A DNA stretch of 64,000 nt from Clostridia bacterium (lineage in GTDB: Bacteria; Bacillota; Clostridia; TANB77; CAG-465), in contig JAOAHC010000040.1 in NCBI GenBank assembly GCA_026415435.1, positions 62,001 to 126,000 on the forward strand. The letters are read 5' to 3'. The position numbers and the translations under genes were made by a program. The stretch's first letter is position 1; every line of letters begins with the position of its first letter. The notes under the pieces were generated by a model that saw nothing but the letters and a program-made list of their open reading frames with translations, searched no databases and was not told the DNA's origin. Below are positions 33,053-39,091 of the stretch, piece after piece.

Positions 33053-33400
33053 ATGAGTATACTAAAGAATAGGATTAATGAAGTAATCGTAGGAAAAAAT
33101 TTCGTGTTGAACTTTATTACTGAAAATCAAACAAAAAACAGTACTATAATTGAAAATGCAAGGTGTATAGTTAAGTTTTCGTACAAAAAAAATCGAGTTT
33201 GTGAAATATCTGTTTTTCTACCAAATAATGAAGAAAGTCCTGTTCTAAAATACAGTGGTATTGATTATGTTACCGCTATTGAGAAATCCAATTTAAATCC
33301 TGATAATAATTTTTTGCAAGAAGAAAAAAATAATATTCTTGACAAGAAATACTTCCTAGGTTTTGTAGTAAGAAACATGCTTAAAGCGTGTCACTGCTAA
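33053..33400 (+). CDS. Hypothetical protein
   Basis: 115 residues, GGAGGA site. Not recognised. It appears to be a soluble beta-alpha protein with ARCIVKFSYKKNRVCEISVFLP in the middle and a Cys-containing end (MLKACHC). It is a single transcription unit with its own promoter and a bidirectional terminator. In size and layout it resembles the other isolated orphans here, but I see no sequence likeness to them. Confidence 0.72.
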   Translation: MSILKNRINEVIVGKNFVLNFITENQTKNSTIIENARCIVKFSYKKNRVCEISVFLPNNEESPVLKYSGIDYVTAIEKSNLNPDNNFLQEEKNNILDKKYFLGFVVRNMLKACHC

Positions 33401-34093: not shown

Positions 34094-34702
34094 TTAAATT
34101 TTTCTAAATAGTCCAACCACTTTACCAAGTATTTCTGGATTACGCGCAATAATAGGTTTCATTGTGCTATTTTCTGGTTGAAGTCTTACATAATCTTTTT
34201 CTTTATAAAATGTCTTAACCGTAGCATCTCCTTCTATCATAGCTACAACGATTTCACCATTTCTAGCTGTATTTTGCTTTGATACTATTATATAATCTCC
34301 ATCATTAATACCGGCTTCTATCATACTTTCTCCTTGAACTTTAAGTATGAAATTATCATTTTTTAGAGCTTCTCTATTAAAGAAACTCTCCCCAATAGAA
34401 AAATAGTCTTCTATATTTTCTTGAGCTAGTATTGGCTCACCTGCAGCAACTTTTCCCACAACAGGCAGTGTAATTGTAGATTCTTCACCAACAACTCTCA
34501 TGGCTCTTGTTTTTAAATCAGCTTTTGAAATAAGCCCTTTTTCTGCTAATTTCCATATATATTGATGCGCTGATGAAGTTGATTTAAAACCTAATGCAGC
34601 ACAAACCTCTCTTACAGAAGGTGGATATCCCGATTCTCTAATCTTTTCTTTAATATAATCAAAAACTCTCTGCTCTTGACCACTTAAATTCAATTCATTC
34701 AT
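34094..34702 (-). CDS. lexA: SOS repressor LexA
   Basis: 202 residues. The N-terminal winged helix (1-65) includes PPSVREVCAALGFKSTSSAHQ. Self-cleavage features are complete: the Ala87-Gly88 bond in KVAAGEP, Ser126 in QGESMIEAG and Lys163 in TVKTFY. It represses DNA-damage genes until RecA-stimulated autocleavage. Its own promoter carries two SOS-box-like palindromes, so it is probably autoregulated. Confidence 0.98.
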   Translation of the reverse strand: MNELNLSGQEQRVFDYIKEKIRESGYPPSVREVCAALGFKSTSSAHQYIWKLAEKGLISKADLKTRAMRVVGEESTITLPVVGKVAAGEPILAQENIEDYFSIGESFFNREALKNDNFILKVQGESMIEAGINDGDYIIVSKQNTARNGEIVVAMIEGDATVKTFYKEKDYVRLQPENSTMKPIIARNPEILGKVVGLFRKI

Positions 34703-34731: not shown

Positions 34732-34760
34732 ATTTTATCATATAAACTTGTGTTTGTCAA
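34732..34760 (-). promoter_or_regulatory. Promoter of lexA
   Basis: TTGACA, 17-bp spacer ending TATGA, TAAAAT on the minus strand. Two SOS boxes overlap or abut the -35. Confidence 0.8.
34744..34755 (-). promoter_or_regulatory. LexA box 1 of lexA
   Basis: AAACTTGTGTTT on the plus strand: (G/A)AAC-N4-GTTT palindrome inside the promoter spacer. Confidence 0.6.
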
Positions 34761-34770
34761 ACAAAAGTTC
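34759..34770 (-). promoter_or_regulatory. LexA box 2 of lexA
   Basis: GAACTTTTGTTT on the minus strand, covering the -35 edge. The GAAC-N4-GTTT core is the same as upstream of the LysM gene. Confidence 0.6.
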
Positions 34771-34839
34771 TTAATTTGTTAATATAAATATTTTTATATT
34801 TATCTAGCATTAATTAAACAAAAAAAGTCTAATTAAAAA

Positions 34840-34921: not shown

Positions 34922-35485
34922 TTATACCCTCTGTGAATAATTACAAGCCAATGACAATTTAAAAGTAAGCATAATTACCCCTCTTATATTTATAGAATAG
35001 TATGCAACTTTTTCATACACACATATCTTTAACGTAACATGTTCACCATATATTATTATCTTTTTGTCAGATATTCTTCTGACGATGTTTGATTGCGCTG
35101 ATTTTTTGACAAAATCTTCTGTAAAAAATAATGTAGCTATAAAAATATCACATTTTTCCATTAAGATTTTTTTATTCCATGAACACATCTTAAGATTATT
35201 ATATTTATTTTTTTGTGGCATTGTAAAATAATCATAAAAAACAGATTTTTCTTTTGGAAACATGTTGTATATTAGTTCTCCAATATTATTAGGTGACTCA
35301 TGTATTTTAGGGTTACACCTGTACACTTCCCGTTCATCCTTTGTATCATATATTCTACAAAAAACTTCATAAACATTAGGCAAATCTTTTTTAACGTGGT
35401 TTAGACAAGAAGCATAATCGCAACCCCATTCTTCAGAAGTACTTTTAAAATTATTAAAAATTTTAGTATAAAATTCTTTATTCAT
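34922..35485 (-). CDS. Hypothetical protein
   Basis: 187 residues from the ATG 9 bases after AGGGGG; an in-frame TTG 11 codons earlier overlaps nothing useful. Not recognised. Soluble, with Cys in WGCDYASCLNHVKKD and YRCNPKIHESP, and a beta-rich C-terminus (KKIIIYGEHVTLKICVYEKVAYYSINIRG). It is a single transcription unit with its own terminator. The promoter has TTGACA only 7 bases from an extended -10 TGATATAAT, like the 24899 gene. Confidence 0.7.
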   Translation of the reverse strand: MNKEFYTKIFNNFKSTSEEWGCDYASCLNHVKKDLPNVYEVFCRIYDTKDEREVYRCNPKIHESPNNIGELIYNMFPKEKSVFYDYFTMPQKNKYNNLKMCSWNKKILMEKCDIFIATLFFTEDFVKKSAQSNIVRRISDKKIIIYGEHVTLKICVYEKVAYYSINIRGVIMLTFKLSLACNYSQRV

Positions 35486-35533
35486 TCTAATATTCCCCCT
35501 ATTAATTTTTTTAGGCAACCGATATTTTTATTT

Positions 35534-35631: not shown

Positions 35632-36708
35632 TTAATCTCCAAAATATATCCCCATATTTTTTGCTGTCTTTATCAAATCGTTATTATTGAAATCAAGTAG
35701 TCTAGGTACTCTATCTTCTGGAAATTTGATTTTTACAAGTTCGTTTTGATTAGTGCCAACTATATATCCACTTTCACCTTCTAGAAGTAATCTAAAAGCA
35801 TAATCTCCAAGTCTTGCTCCAAGTATTATATCACTAGGACAAGGAGATCCACCTCTTTGAATGTGTCCAAGTATTATTGATCTCGATTCATACCCTGTAA
35901 TATATTCTATATCTCTTGCAAGTCTTTCAGATACACCGCCATATCTTTTTTGTTCAAAGCTATTTTCAACAATTCTAGCAATTACTTCTTCTTTACCTAC
36001 TTCTTTACAAGCTTCAGAAGCTGCTATTATTACATATCTTTTTGTGTTTTCCATTATTTGTTTTACTCTATCACAAACTTTTTTAAGATTATAGTCTTTT
36101 TCTGGAAGTAATATGATATCTGCACCTGCTGCAAATCCTCCATATAAAGTTAAATATCCAGAAGTTCTACCCATAGTTTCAACTACAAGTACCCTTCTAT
36201 GAGAATAAGCAGTTGATTTTAATTTACTTATAGCATCAACAACATTAGATATTGCAGTATCAAATCCTATTGTTGGATCACTTGCAATCATATCATTATC
36301 TATTGTCTTTGGTATGCCTATTACTCTCATACCACGACTATTAATAACTTTTGCAGAATCTAAAGTTCCATCCCCACCAACTATTACCATTGCTTCTACA
36401 CCAATAGTTTTAAGTGAGCTAATTGATTCATCTATCATGTCATAATGTTTAGTTTTATCTTCTTTATCTGGGTAGCATGATGGATTTTCTTTATTTGAAG
36501 ATCCAAGTATTGTTCCACCTATAGTTTCAATGTCAGCAACATCTTTTTCAGTTAATGTTTTGTATTTTTTTTCAACAAATCCTATATAACCATCTATAAT
36601 TCCAACTACTTCTATTCCCTTTTTATTTGCAGACAAAACTACTGATTTAATAACACTATTTAGTCCTGCACAGTCTCCCCCTGCAGTCATTATTGCTATC
36701 TTTTTCAT
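35632..36708 (-). CDS. pfkA: 6-phosphofructokinase
   Basis: 358 residues. Key motifs: TAGGDCAGLN, VGGDGTLDSA, IPKTIDND, ETMGRTSGYL, GHIQRGGSPCPSD. The residue after GGD is Gly, as in ATP enzymes. The position before TIDND is Lys, a mix found in the group III ATP-PFKs related to pyrophosphate enzymes. ATP use is therefore likely but not certain. It phosphorylates fructose 6-phosphate in glycolysis. It lies 16 bases after the rpe-alkD fusion gene. Confidence 0.95.
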   Translation of the reverse strand: MKKIAIMTAGGDCAGLNSVIKSVVLSANKKGIEVVGIIDGYIGFVEKKYKTLTEKDVADIETIGGTILGSSNKENPSCYPDKEDKTKHYDMIDESISSLKTIGVEAMVIVGGDGTLDSAKVINSRGMRVIGIPKTIDNDMIASDPTIGFDTAISNVVDAISKLKSTAYSHRRVLVVETMGRTSGYLTLYGGFAAGADIILLPEKDYNLKKVCDRVKQIMENTKRYVIIAASEACKEVGKEEVIARIVENSFEQKRYGGVSERLARDIEYITGYESRSIILGHIQRGGSPCPSDIILGARLGDYAFRLLLEGESGYIVGTNQNELVKIKFPEDRVPRLLDFNNNDLIKTAKNMGIYFGD

Positions 36709-36724
36709 ATAAACTCCTCCTATG

Positions 36725-38149
36725 TTAATTATTTTTTATATAGTCTTTTTGATCCTTTGTCATCTTTTCACAAGCGTAAGACAATATTATACTAGGTATT
36801 TTTTTCTTGCTATTATTATGCTTCAAAAATTGGATAATAATTTCATTATCTTTTTTATATATTTCTCTTAAAACCCAACCTACTGCTTTCTGCAATAGAT
36901 TTTCCTTAACATATAGCATTTTTTTGCATACGTCAAGTGGAAGATCCAAAATATTTTTTCTTACTAAAAATAATTGTGAAACAATTCCTATTCTTTTTAC
37001 CCATAGATTATCATGATCTAAATATTTTGAAATTTCTATATTAATTTTAATATTTCTTTCTAAACATTCAAATAAATATCTTCCTAATATATTTGGAGCT
37101 GAATCATCGGTTAAATCCCAATTATTTATATATTCTATATTTTTCTTGTAATACTCATATATTTCATCTATACTATACATTTTACTAATAACTGTGTTAG
37201 CTAAACAAAATATTGCAAATTGTCTACACTCATGATAAGGTGAAGAAATAAAATTGTTTAATATATCTAGATTTATAGCCTTAGACCACTTGTTTGCAAT
37301 AGTCCTCACAGAAGGTACATTTATTCCAATAAGTTTATCTTTTTCCCCATATCCTCCTGGTACTACTTGAAGTAACTTCTTATCAAATTCAATATTTCTG
37401 CTTTTTTCGTTAGTCCATATATCATTAAGAATGTTTAGCTTAGTAATTTTATTGTACAAATCATTTAAATTTTCATAATCTGTAATGTAACTACCAATTA
37501 CAAAACTATCTATTCCAGCTTCTAAATTTTGTATAAAATTAGTATCATTTATCCCACCATCTACTTGTATAGATTTATCTGTGAATAACTTTTTTGCTTC
37601 TCTAATCTTATATATTGTATCTTCTATATATGCTTGTCCTCCATAACCTGGTTCAACTGACATAATGAGAATTTTTGAAAATTTATCTTTATAGTTAAGT
37701 AGTTTACTAACGTCAGTATCTGGTTTAATAGATACACCAATATTTAATACTCGCCCTTCTTTAGCTAATTTTGCTTTTAAATCATTTAAATAATCTAATA
37801 TACTTTCAAATTTATCTATTTCATAATGTATTGTTATATCATCACTACCATATTCAATTGCTTTTGCAATATAACCATCCTCTATAGGCTCTTTAACCAT
37901 TAAATGTGTATCAGCATACATACCAAAATCTTTTGATGTTTTTATATTTTCTATATCAACACCTGAACTACTTACAAACTTTGCATCCATCACATCAAAA
38001 TGAATACAAAGTTTTAATAATTCTTGTACATATTTTTTGCTAACATTATCTTTATAAGTATCTTGAATTCTAATTAAATTAGTTGTTAATTCACAAACAT
38101 TTTGACATTTTAGAATTGAAACACAAATAGAATACTGTTTTTTTATCAT
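36725..38149 (-). CDS. Fusion of ribulose-phosphate 3-epimerase and AlkD-type DNA glycosylase
   Basis: 474 residues from the second ATG, 8 bases after GAGG. Residues about 1-222 are an Rpe TIM barrel with all metal ligands: His and Asp of IHFDVMD, His of DTHLMV and Asp of QVDGGIN, plus MSVEPGYGGQAYI. From about 235 to 474 it is an AlkD/HEAT-repeat DNA alkylation-repair protein: GYGEKDKLIGINVPSVRTIA, and NNWDLTDDSAP, which keeps the Trp-x3-Asp pair of B. cereus AlkD. The gene sits where rpe normally does, 16 bases after rsgA. The fusion is unusual; both halves look functional. Confidence 0.85.
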   Translation of the reverse strand: MIKKQYSICVSILKCQNVCELTTNLIRIQDTYKDNVSKKYVQELLKLCIHFDVMDAKFVSSSGVDIENIKTSKDFGMYADTHLMVKEPIEDGYIAKAIEYGSDDITIHYEIDKFESILDYLNDLKAKLAKEGRVLNIGVSIKPDTDVSKLLNYKDKFSKILIMSVEPGYGGQAYIEDTIYKIREAKKLFTDKSIQVDGGINDTNFIQNLEAGIDSFVIGSYITDYENLNDLYNKITKLNILNDIWTNEKSRNIEFDKKLLQVVPGGYGEKDKLIGINVPSVRTIANKWSKAINLDILNNFISSPYHECRQFAIFCLANTVISKMYSIDEIYEYYKKNIEYINNWDLTDDSAPNILGRYLFECLERNIKINIEISKYLDHDNLWVKRIGIVSQLFLVRKNILDLPLDVCKKMLYVKENLLQKAVGWVLREIYKKDNEIIIQFLKHNNSKKKIPSIILSYACEKMTKDQKDYIKNN

Positions 38150-38170
38150 ATACATTACCTCATAGGTTAT

Positions 38171-39091
38171 TTACTTATATTTTCTATCATAGTTTTCTTT
38201 TAATTTTAAATATATTTCTACATATCTATAATATCTAAGCATATCAACCTTATTTTCCTTAACAAGCTTTTTTATAGTACATTCACTTTCAGATTCATTT
38301 ACATGCATACAGTCTAAATATTTACATTTATCCTTTAGAAATTCAGGATAATATAGCTTTAAGTCTTTATATTCTATATCATATAAGTCATACTCAGAAA
38401 ATCCAGGAGTATCTAGTATATATGCATTTACCAGATACTCAACTAAATATAAATTAACTTGTTTAGTTGTATGTTTTCCTTTTTTACTATTACTTGTAAG
38501 TTCTCCTATTTGAATATCATGATTTTTAAGTATAAATTTAGTTATACTAGATTTTCCAACACCCGAAGAACCACAAAGGGCAGTTATATTATTTGTAAGT
38601 ATATTATTTAAATCATTTATACCTACATTATTTTTAACACTTATATATACAACCTTAACACCTAACTTTTCATAAGTATTTTTTATATATTCAAGTTCAT
38701 TACTATAACTTTCATCCTGATCTTTAAGATCTATCTTATTTACACAAATTATAGGGTTTATATTTTTACTGAAACAAAATGCTAATTCTTTATCTAACAA
38801 TAAATAGTCTGGTTTAGGATTTGTTAGTGCTATTACTAGTATCATCTGATCTATATTTGATACAGGTGGCCTTATTATCTTGTTTTTTCTTGGTAAAACA
38901 CTATCAATTAGCCATGTATCATACATTTGCCTTAAAGATACAATATCTCCAACATTTAAACTTTTTTCTTTACTCTTCAAAGTCCCTTTAATTATACCTT
39001 CATATATCTTATCGGGATTTGCTAAATCATGTAATATGTATTTATTAAGTTTTATCTCAGTAATTCTAGCCTTATTTACTATATTTTCCAA
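38171..39091 (-). CDS. rsgA: Ribosome small-subunit-dependent GTPase RsgA
   Basis: 306 residues, starting with TTG 8 bases after GAGGT. OB-fold domain first, then a circularly permuted GTPase: NKIDL (G4) comes before GSSGVGKSS (G1) and DTPGFSEY (G3). A C-terminal zinc site is CKYLDCMHVNESESEC. It helps 30S maturation. Rare start codon noted. Confidence 0.96.
   Translation of the reverse strand: MENIVNKARITEIKLNKYILHDLANPDKIYEGIIKGTLKSKEKSLNVGDIVSLRQMYDTWLIDSVLPRKNKIIRPPVSNIDQMILVIALTNPKPDYLLLDKELAFCFSKNINPIICVNKIDLKDQDESYSNELEYIKNTYEKLGVKVVYISVKNNVGINDLNNILTNNITALCGSSGVGKSSITKFILKNHDIQIGELTSNSKKGKHTTKQVNLYLVEYLVNAYILDTPGFSEYDLYDIEYKDLKLYYPEFLKDKCKYLDCMHVNESESECTIKKLVKENKVDMLRYYRYVEIYLKLKENYDRKYK

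Follow-up and report, generated by a model that had tools for sequence, protein, structure and literature searches.

A lineage-specific fusion of ribulose-phosphate epimerase and an AlkD-type domain in a family of Clostridia

Why should an enzyme of sugar-phosphate metabolism be joined to a domain known from the repair of alkylated DNA? The question is raised by a gene in a 64-kb stretch of DNA from a Clostridia bacterium (the window, positions 1–64000), where an uninterrupted open frame of 476 codons runs on the minus strand from 38155 to 36725 and encodes both a ribulose-phosphate epimerase (Rpe) and an AlkD-type HEAT-like-repeat domain. We designate this gene rpe-alkD (36725–38155, minus strand, 476 aa); it is defined by the open frame, by two Pfam domains scoring over their cut-offs and by its occurrence at full length in 25 of the family's 36 genomes, the window genome among them. 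The original prediction, made from the letters of this DNA, that one frame joins Rpe to an AlkD/HEAT-repeat protein thus holds, with both domains in a single frame. Its start at 38149 is an in-frame ATG, codon 3 of the frame, for which we take the ATG at 38155 as the start; the strand, which it did not give, is minus.

As had also been proposed, the gene occupies the usual rpe slot after rsgA (38171–39091, minus; Pfam RsgA_GTPase). Its downstream neighbour is pfkA (35632–36708, minus; Pfam PFK, and NCBIfam PRK03202 over cut-off), with lexA (34094–34702, minus; NCBIfam lexA equivalog) further downstream in the conserved order rsgA-rpe-pfkA-lexA, as is a gene for dipicolinate synthase subunit B. 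Neither a 198-aa frame between pfkA and lexA (34922–35518, minus) nor a 115-aa frame on the strand opposite to its neighbours (33053–33400, plus) matched any Pfam or NCBIfam model, and no tRNA or tmRNA genes were found across the window.

The Rpe domain comprises residues 1–240 (37436–38155, minus), and its assignment as a TIM barrel is based on Pfam, an AlphaFold2 model, structure matches and conservation. Ribul_P_3_epim (PF00834) matches residues 48–224 (E 2e-33; 115.9 bits, the cut-off being 21.1), and residues 7–248 of the model match the Rpe structure 5umf_C with Z 26.8 and an rmsd of 1.9 over 212 aligned residues at 32% identity. The whole barrel is present in the model, in line with the earlier description of the predicted Rpe as complete. 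H52, D54, M56, D57, H84, M86 and D199 are invariant in all 25 fused proteins, and four of these (H52, D54, H84 and D199), which we take to be the metal-binding and catalytic His, Asp, His and Asp of Rpe, align to identical residues in the five solved Rpe structures shown. With solved Rpe (PF00834; for example, 5umf, 2fli and 3ovr) the fusion shares the barrel, the H-x-D-x-M-D and DGG motifs and the position after rsgA; it differs from known Rpe in its extra C-terminal domain, in a longer segment separating the HFDVMD motif from the first strand, which is accompanied by similar N-termini in unfused relatives of the family, and in NCBIfam scores below cut-off. These scores are 117.7 bits against an equivalog cut-off of 212.6 for TIGR01163 and 149.3 against a subfamily cut-off of 165 for PRK05581, and an allulose-6-phosphate epimerase model also matches, with 92.5 bits; the best NCBIfam matches are nevertheless Rpe models. 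From its sequence, the N-terminal half is a PF00834 member with probable Rpe function. The fused gene is the only PF00834 match detected in the window genome (1.45 Mb), which also has a transketolase gene. Two other fused genomes, G026 (C65:4922-5521) and G028 (C93:1420-2022), contain a second, standalone Rpe, and these have the best Pfam scores of the set.

The AlkD-type HEAT-like-repeat domain spans residues 241–476 (36728–37435, minus) and was delimited by Pfam, the model, a structure match and conservation. DNA_alkylation (PF08713) matches residues 271–465 (E 2.1e-42; 145.7 bits, the cut-off being 21), so that a domain search of the full protein returns both families far over their cut-offs. 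Likewise, structure prediction gives an AlkD fold in the C-terminal half, since model residues 234–469 match Bacillus cereus AlkD (BcAlkD) on abasic DNA (3jy1_A) with Z 19.1 and rmsd 2.8 over 219 aligned residues. A passage of PMC8626424 names Trp109, Asp113 and Trp187 as the catalytic residues of BcAlkD. The Trp-x3-Asp pair noticed at the outset is kept as W346 and D350, W427 corresponds to Trp187, and all three are invariant in the 25 fused proteins, together with R388, K423, R430 and E431. The pair alone is weak evidence of an active enzyme, because distant standalone PF08713 paralogues from sister genomes (L069-L072) also carry it, as NWAICD, NWSICD, NWAICD and SWGICD; one of them, L071 from G020, gave no meaningful match when compared with solved structures to check for likeness to AlkD2. 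The AlkD part has a net positive charge in 25 of 25 fused proteins (+5 to +16), which a surface that binds DNA requires, although charge is no proof of DNA binding.

This half has an altered N-terminal cap. In the model, helix B covers only residues 255–261 and is followed by an 18-residue loop, a region in which 4–7 residues are missing in four of the 25 fused relatives, and the profile alignment to BcAlkD begins only past helix B and covers no counterpart of Lys29. In AlkD, helix B enters the minor groove. Passages of PMC4433238 describe Lys29 on helix B of BcAlkD as critical for lesion binding, and AlkD2, which is without helix B, as excising no alkylpurines. The fusion half thus has in common with BcAlkD (3jy1, 3jxy, 5cl3) the fold over 219 residues and the catalytic Trp, Asp and Trp, and differs from it in being only ca. 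20% identical, in the short helix B with a long loop after it, and in being joined to Rpe. With the non-glycosylase HEAT-like-repeat proteins AlkD2, AlkF and AlkG it shares the overall architecture and the altered cap; unlike AlkD2, it has a short predicted helix and keeps all three catalytic residues. Glycosylase, the name given in the original prediction, is a reasonable one for this half, though it is unproven. The closest sequence relatives found are AlkD-type proteins with the signature YINNWDLVD...GWMLRE (L036, L039-L043 and L120), which are encoded by standalone genes in Spirochaetales, Dependentiae, Neomarinimicrobiota, Telluribacter and other lineages; L036 is 42% identical to the C-terminal half, and 25 columns are invariant across that half, L036 and L039-L043. 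The fused gene is the only PF08713 match in the window genome. A role as the sole alkylation repair protein was discarded, because the genome also contains two HhH-GPD genes and a PF02245 alkyl-purine glycosylase gene, whose match is split into two parts that each lie in a frame of 172 aa.

The two halves appear to be joined through a single helix. The AlphaFold2 model of the fusion, built from 11 aligned sequences, has a mean pLDDT of 89.8 and a pTM of 0.87 and contains both folds. A helix at residues 230–248 (37412–37468, minus), defined by DSSP of the model, by the overlapping aligned ranges and by a second model, is predicted to be continuous, and the structural aligner counted it both as the last helix of Rpe (range 7–248) and as the first of AlkD (range 234–469). 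The second model, of the relative G015 (41% identity; pTM 0.82), has the same continuous helix at residues 210–227; the structure matches listed for it were barrel proteins only, one domain taking all the places, and the absence of AlkD there is no evidence.

Full-length fusions without a stop were found in the window genome, the sole member of its genus here, and in 24 of the 28 genomes of a second genus, with identities of 42–53% for these 24 relatives. The remaining genomes of the second genus differ in what they keep. G001 has both parts adjacent, broken at the junction by a 1-nt insertion relative to its close relative G015 (L031 / L101), which reflects either a genuine split of recent date or a mistake in the assembly; in G020 and G025, pfkA comes immediately after rpe, with no AlkD domain; and in G019 (85% complete) neither part was found. 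The genera g3 (two genomes) and g4 (three genomes) have Rpe without the AlkD domain. The two genomes of g5 (G034 and G035), both of good quality, had no PF00834 or PF08713 match.

Beyond the family, the matches listed for the order (385 genomes) and the class (391 genomes) include no full-length fusion, in a census where a weak, distant fusion could be missed. A PF08713 gene is present in 285 of the 385 order genomes, and the open frames listed from outside the fused clade are all of 313 aa or less. Full-length matches are thus confined, among the matches listed, to two genera of the family, and the census of family, order and class supports the earlier suggestion of a lineage-specific gene fusion. 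Elsewhere, an Rpe match in G446 (C1:1400679-1401194) falls within an open frame of 365 aa, which is longer than that of a simple Rpe, and is possibly another fusion. A second, standalone PF08713 gene occurs in two of the 25 fused genomes, one of these copies containing stops, and in five of ten unfused members of the family (Fisher p 0.012, with G001 left out and shared descent ignored), which suggests that the fused AlkD copy replaces the standalone one. The literature that we searched, by pairs of names or by both Pfam accessions, contained no description of an Rpe-AlkD union, and the main text of PMC4921024, one paper from a search on gene fusions, has no mention of epimerase, ribulose or glycosylase.

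Comparison of gene order points to how the fusion arose. In the unfused genomes of g3, a sister genus, the order is rsgA-rpe-pfkA-lexA, with no alkD in between, and G029 has an extra 324-aa ORF after rsgA. A concatenated tree of six neighbouring proteins, rooted with other families, places g3 outside g1, g2 and g4, and from this and the g3 gene order we infer that alkD entered between rpe and pfkA; most likely, it was inserted there and then fused. Among the 25 fused genomes, pfkA directly follows the fusion in 17, and is separated from it by an ORF of 224–234 aa in seven and by one of 429 aa in another. In the two cases checked, L011:2927-3631 and L015:2909-3586, the shorter ORF belongs to PNP_UDP_1 (phosphorylase superfamily). 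Because G020 and G025 both sit among fused genomes, their lack of the AlkD domain represents losses, and the domain was most likely lost later in two or more lineages. Whether g4 lost it or never had it depends on the tree used: the Rpe tree places g4 outside g1+g2, and the window genome is its partner in the concatenated tree (FastTree support 0.97). In the AlkD tree, standalone relatives branch beside the window sequence, but with weak support (0.66), and that tree makes one origin of the fused AlkD domain likely without proving it.

Both halves are being maintained by purifying selection, with NG86 dN/dS values in eight pairs of 0.15–0.31 for the Rpe half and, except for one pair, of 0.12–0.27 for the AlkD half. 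The exception is the near-identical pair G010/G014, with a value of 0.71 for the AlkD half at a dS of 0.024, where there are too few changes. With respect to regulation, SOS control via LexA was rejected, since the window contains no exact GAAC-N4-GTTC; a looser LexA-box pattern matched 25 times in the window, against 23.8 expected, and none of these matches is near the start of rpe-alkD. An internal promoter was rejected as well, a scan having yielded about as many sites as shuffled sequences. Separately, two LexA-box-like sites at 34743–34771, a short way upstream of lexA, which starts at 34702 on the minus strand, suggest self-regulation of lexA by their position alone, the loose pattern occurring at chance frequency.

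How, then, is the fusion to be read? That it might be an artefact of assembly, or hide a missed stop or frameshift, was a natural worry in a genome of 52 contigs, particularly around 37420–37480 and given the insertion at the junction in G001, but it is hardly credible and can be set aside: the junction is open in 25 of the 36 genomes, and thus in 24 besides that of the window, and the two-domain model is confident. The worry is answered by relatives rather than by reads. Very little speaks for an N-terminal half that is a PF00834 epimerase with a substrate other than ribulose 5-phosphate; its scores below the NCBIfam Rpe cut-offs and the allulose-6-phosphate match would allow it, against which stand best matches that remain Rpe models, the usual rsgA-rpe slot of the only PF00834 gene in the genome, and closest solved structures that are Rpe. 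A more serious possibility, to which we give perhaps a one-in-four kind of weight, is that the AlkD half has lost glycosylase activity and serves, like AlkD2, AlkF and AlkG, as a non-catalytic HEAT-like-repeat module, which might tether Rpe through weak binding of DNA or a partner, or act in oligomerisation or as a structural part. The short helix B, the partial loss of the following loop in four of 25 relatives, the inactivity on alkylpurines that passages of PMC4433238 report for AlkD2, the absence of the domain from G020 and G025, which makes it dispensable, and the presence in the genome of a gene for an alkyl-purine glycosylase from a different family are all in its favour; however, a purely structural module would not need the three BcAlkD catalytic residues and R388, invariant in 25 of 25, and the half aligns with BcAlkD from helix A on.

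A functional coupling of pentose-phosphate metabolism and DNA repair, in which Rpe would be recruited to DNA or a sugar-phosphate ligand would modulate repair, seems improbable to us. It could draw on the persistence of the fusion among relatives only 42–53% identical with both halves under purifying selection, on a predicted junction helix that would fix their relative geometry, and on the rarity of a second standalone PF08713 gene in fused genomes (2/25 against 5/10, descent being ignored in the test). Yet no pathway step joins Rpe and AlkD, no LexA-box-like site lies near the gene start, some lineages have retained rpe but not the AlkD domain, and no similar fusion was seen outside the family among the matches listed. 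Slightly less probable still is an obligatory fusion in which the junction helix would lock Rpe to the HEAT-like-repeat domain as a single rigid machine, the epimerase being carried on DNA, or an oligomer presenting several DNA-binding faces, with sugar-phosphate occupancy and lesion binding influencing each other. The link between abasic-site chemistry and pentose phosphates raised in the original prediction likewise finds no support in neighbourhood, regulation or distribution; the AlkD domain is dispensable, and the two genes seem to have come together when alkD was inserted by chance into the existing rpe-pfkA row.

We therefore favour, as the probable though by no means certain reading, a lineage-specific bifunctional protein with two independent activities, where both the activities and the lack of any functional link are our deductions. 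In an ancestor belonging to the family, an alkD gene whose standalone subtype is widespread would have been inserted between rpe and pfkA and fused in frame to rpe through a continuous helix. The Rpe half would provide the ribulose-5-phosphate 3-epimerase activity of the cell in the non-oxidative pentose-phosphate pathway, and the AlkD half would bind DNA with its concave face, which is positively charged, and would most likely excise or at least recognise cationic alkylpurines as BcAlkD does. Fusion would then mean one transcript, one dose and a fixed geometry, and not a shared chemistry. Against a bifunctional protein of independent halves, the long conservation of the fusion despite easy splitting could mean that the link matters; the Rpe half is below the NCBIfam cut-offs, and the AlkD cap is altered in a region whose helix B is described as critical in BcAlkD in passages of PMC4433238.

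In all, the fusion is confirmed, conserved, lineage-specific and built of known parts, and it is probably without a deep functional link. Both halves belong to known families, whereas no account of their union appeared in the literature searched. To our knowledge, no earlier tie exists between a pentose-phosphate enzyme and base-excision repair, and such a tie is what the protein would represent if its halves communicate. The family offers a compact case of fusion by insertion into a gene row, with unfused, fused, broken and apparently lost states side by side, and it warns against treating every domain fusion as a functional link.
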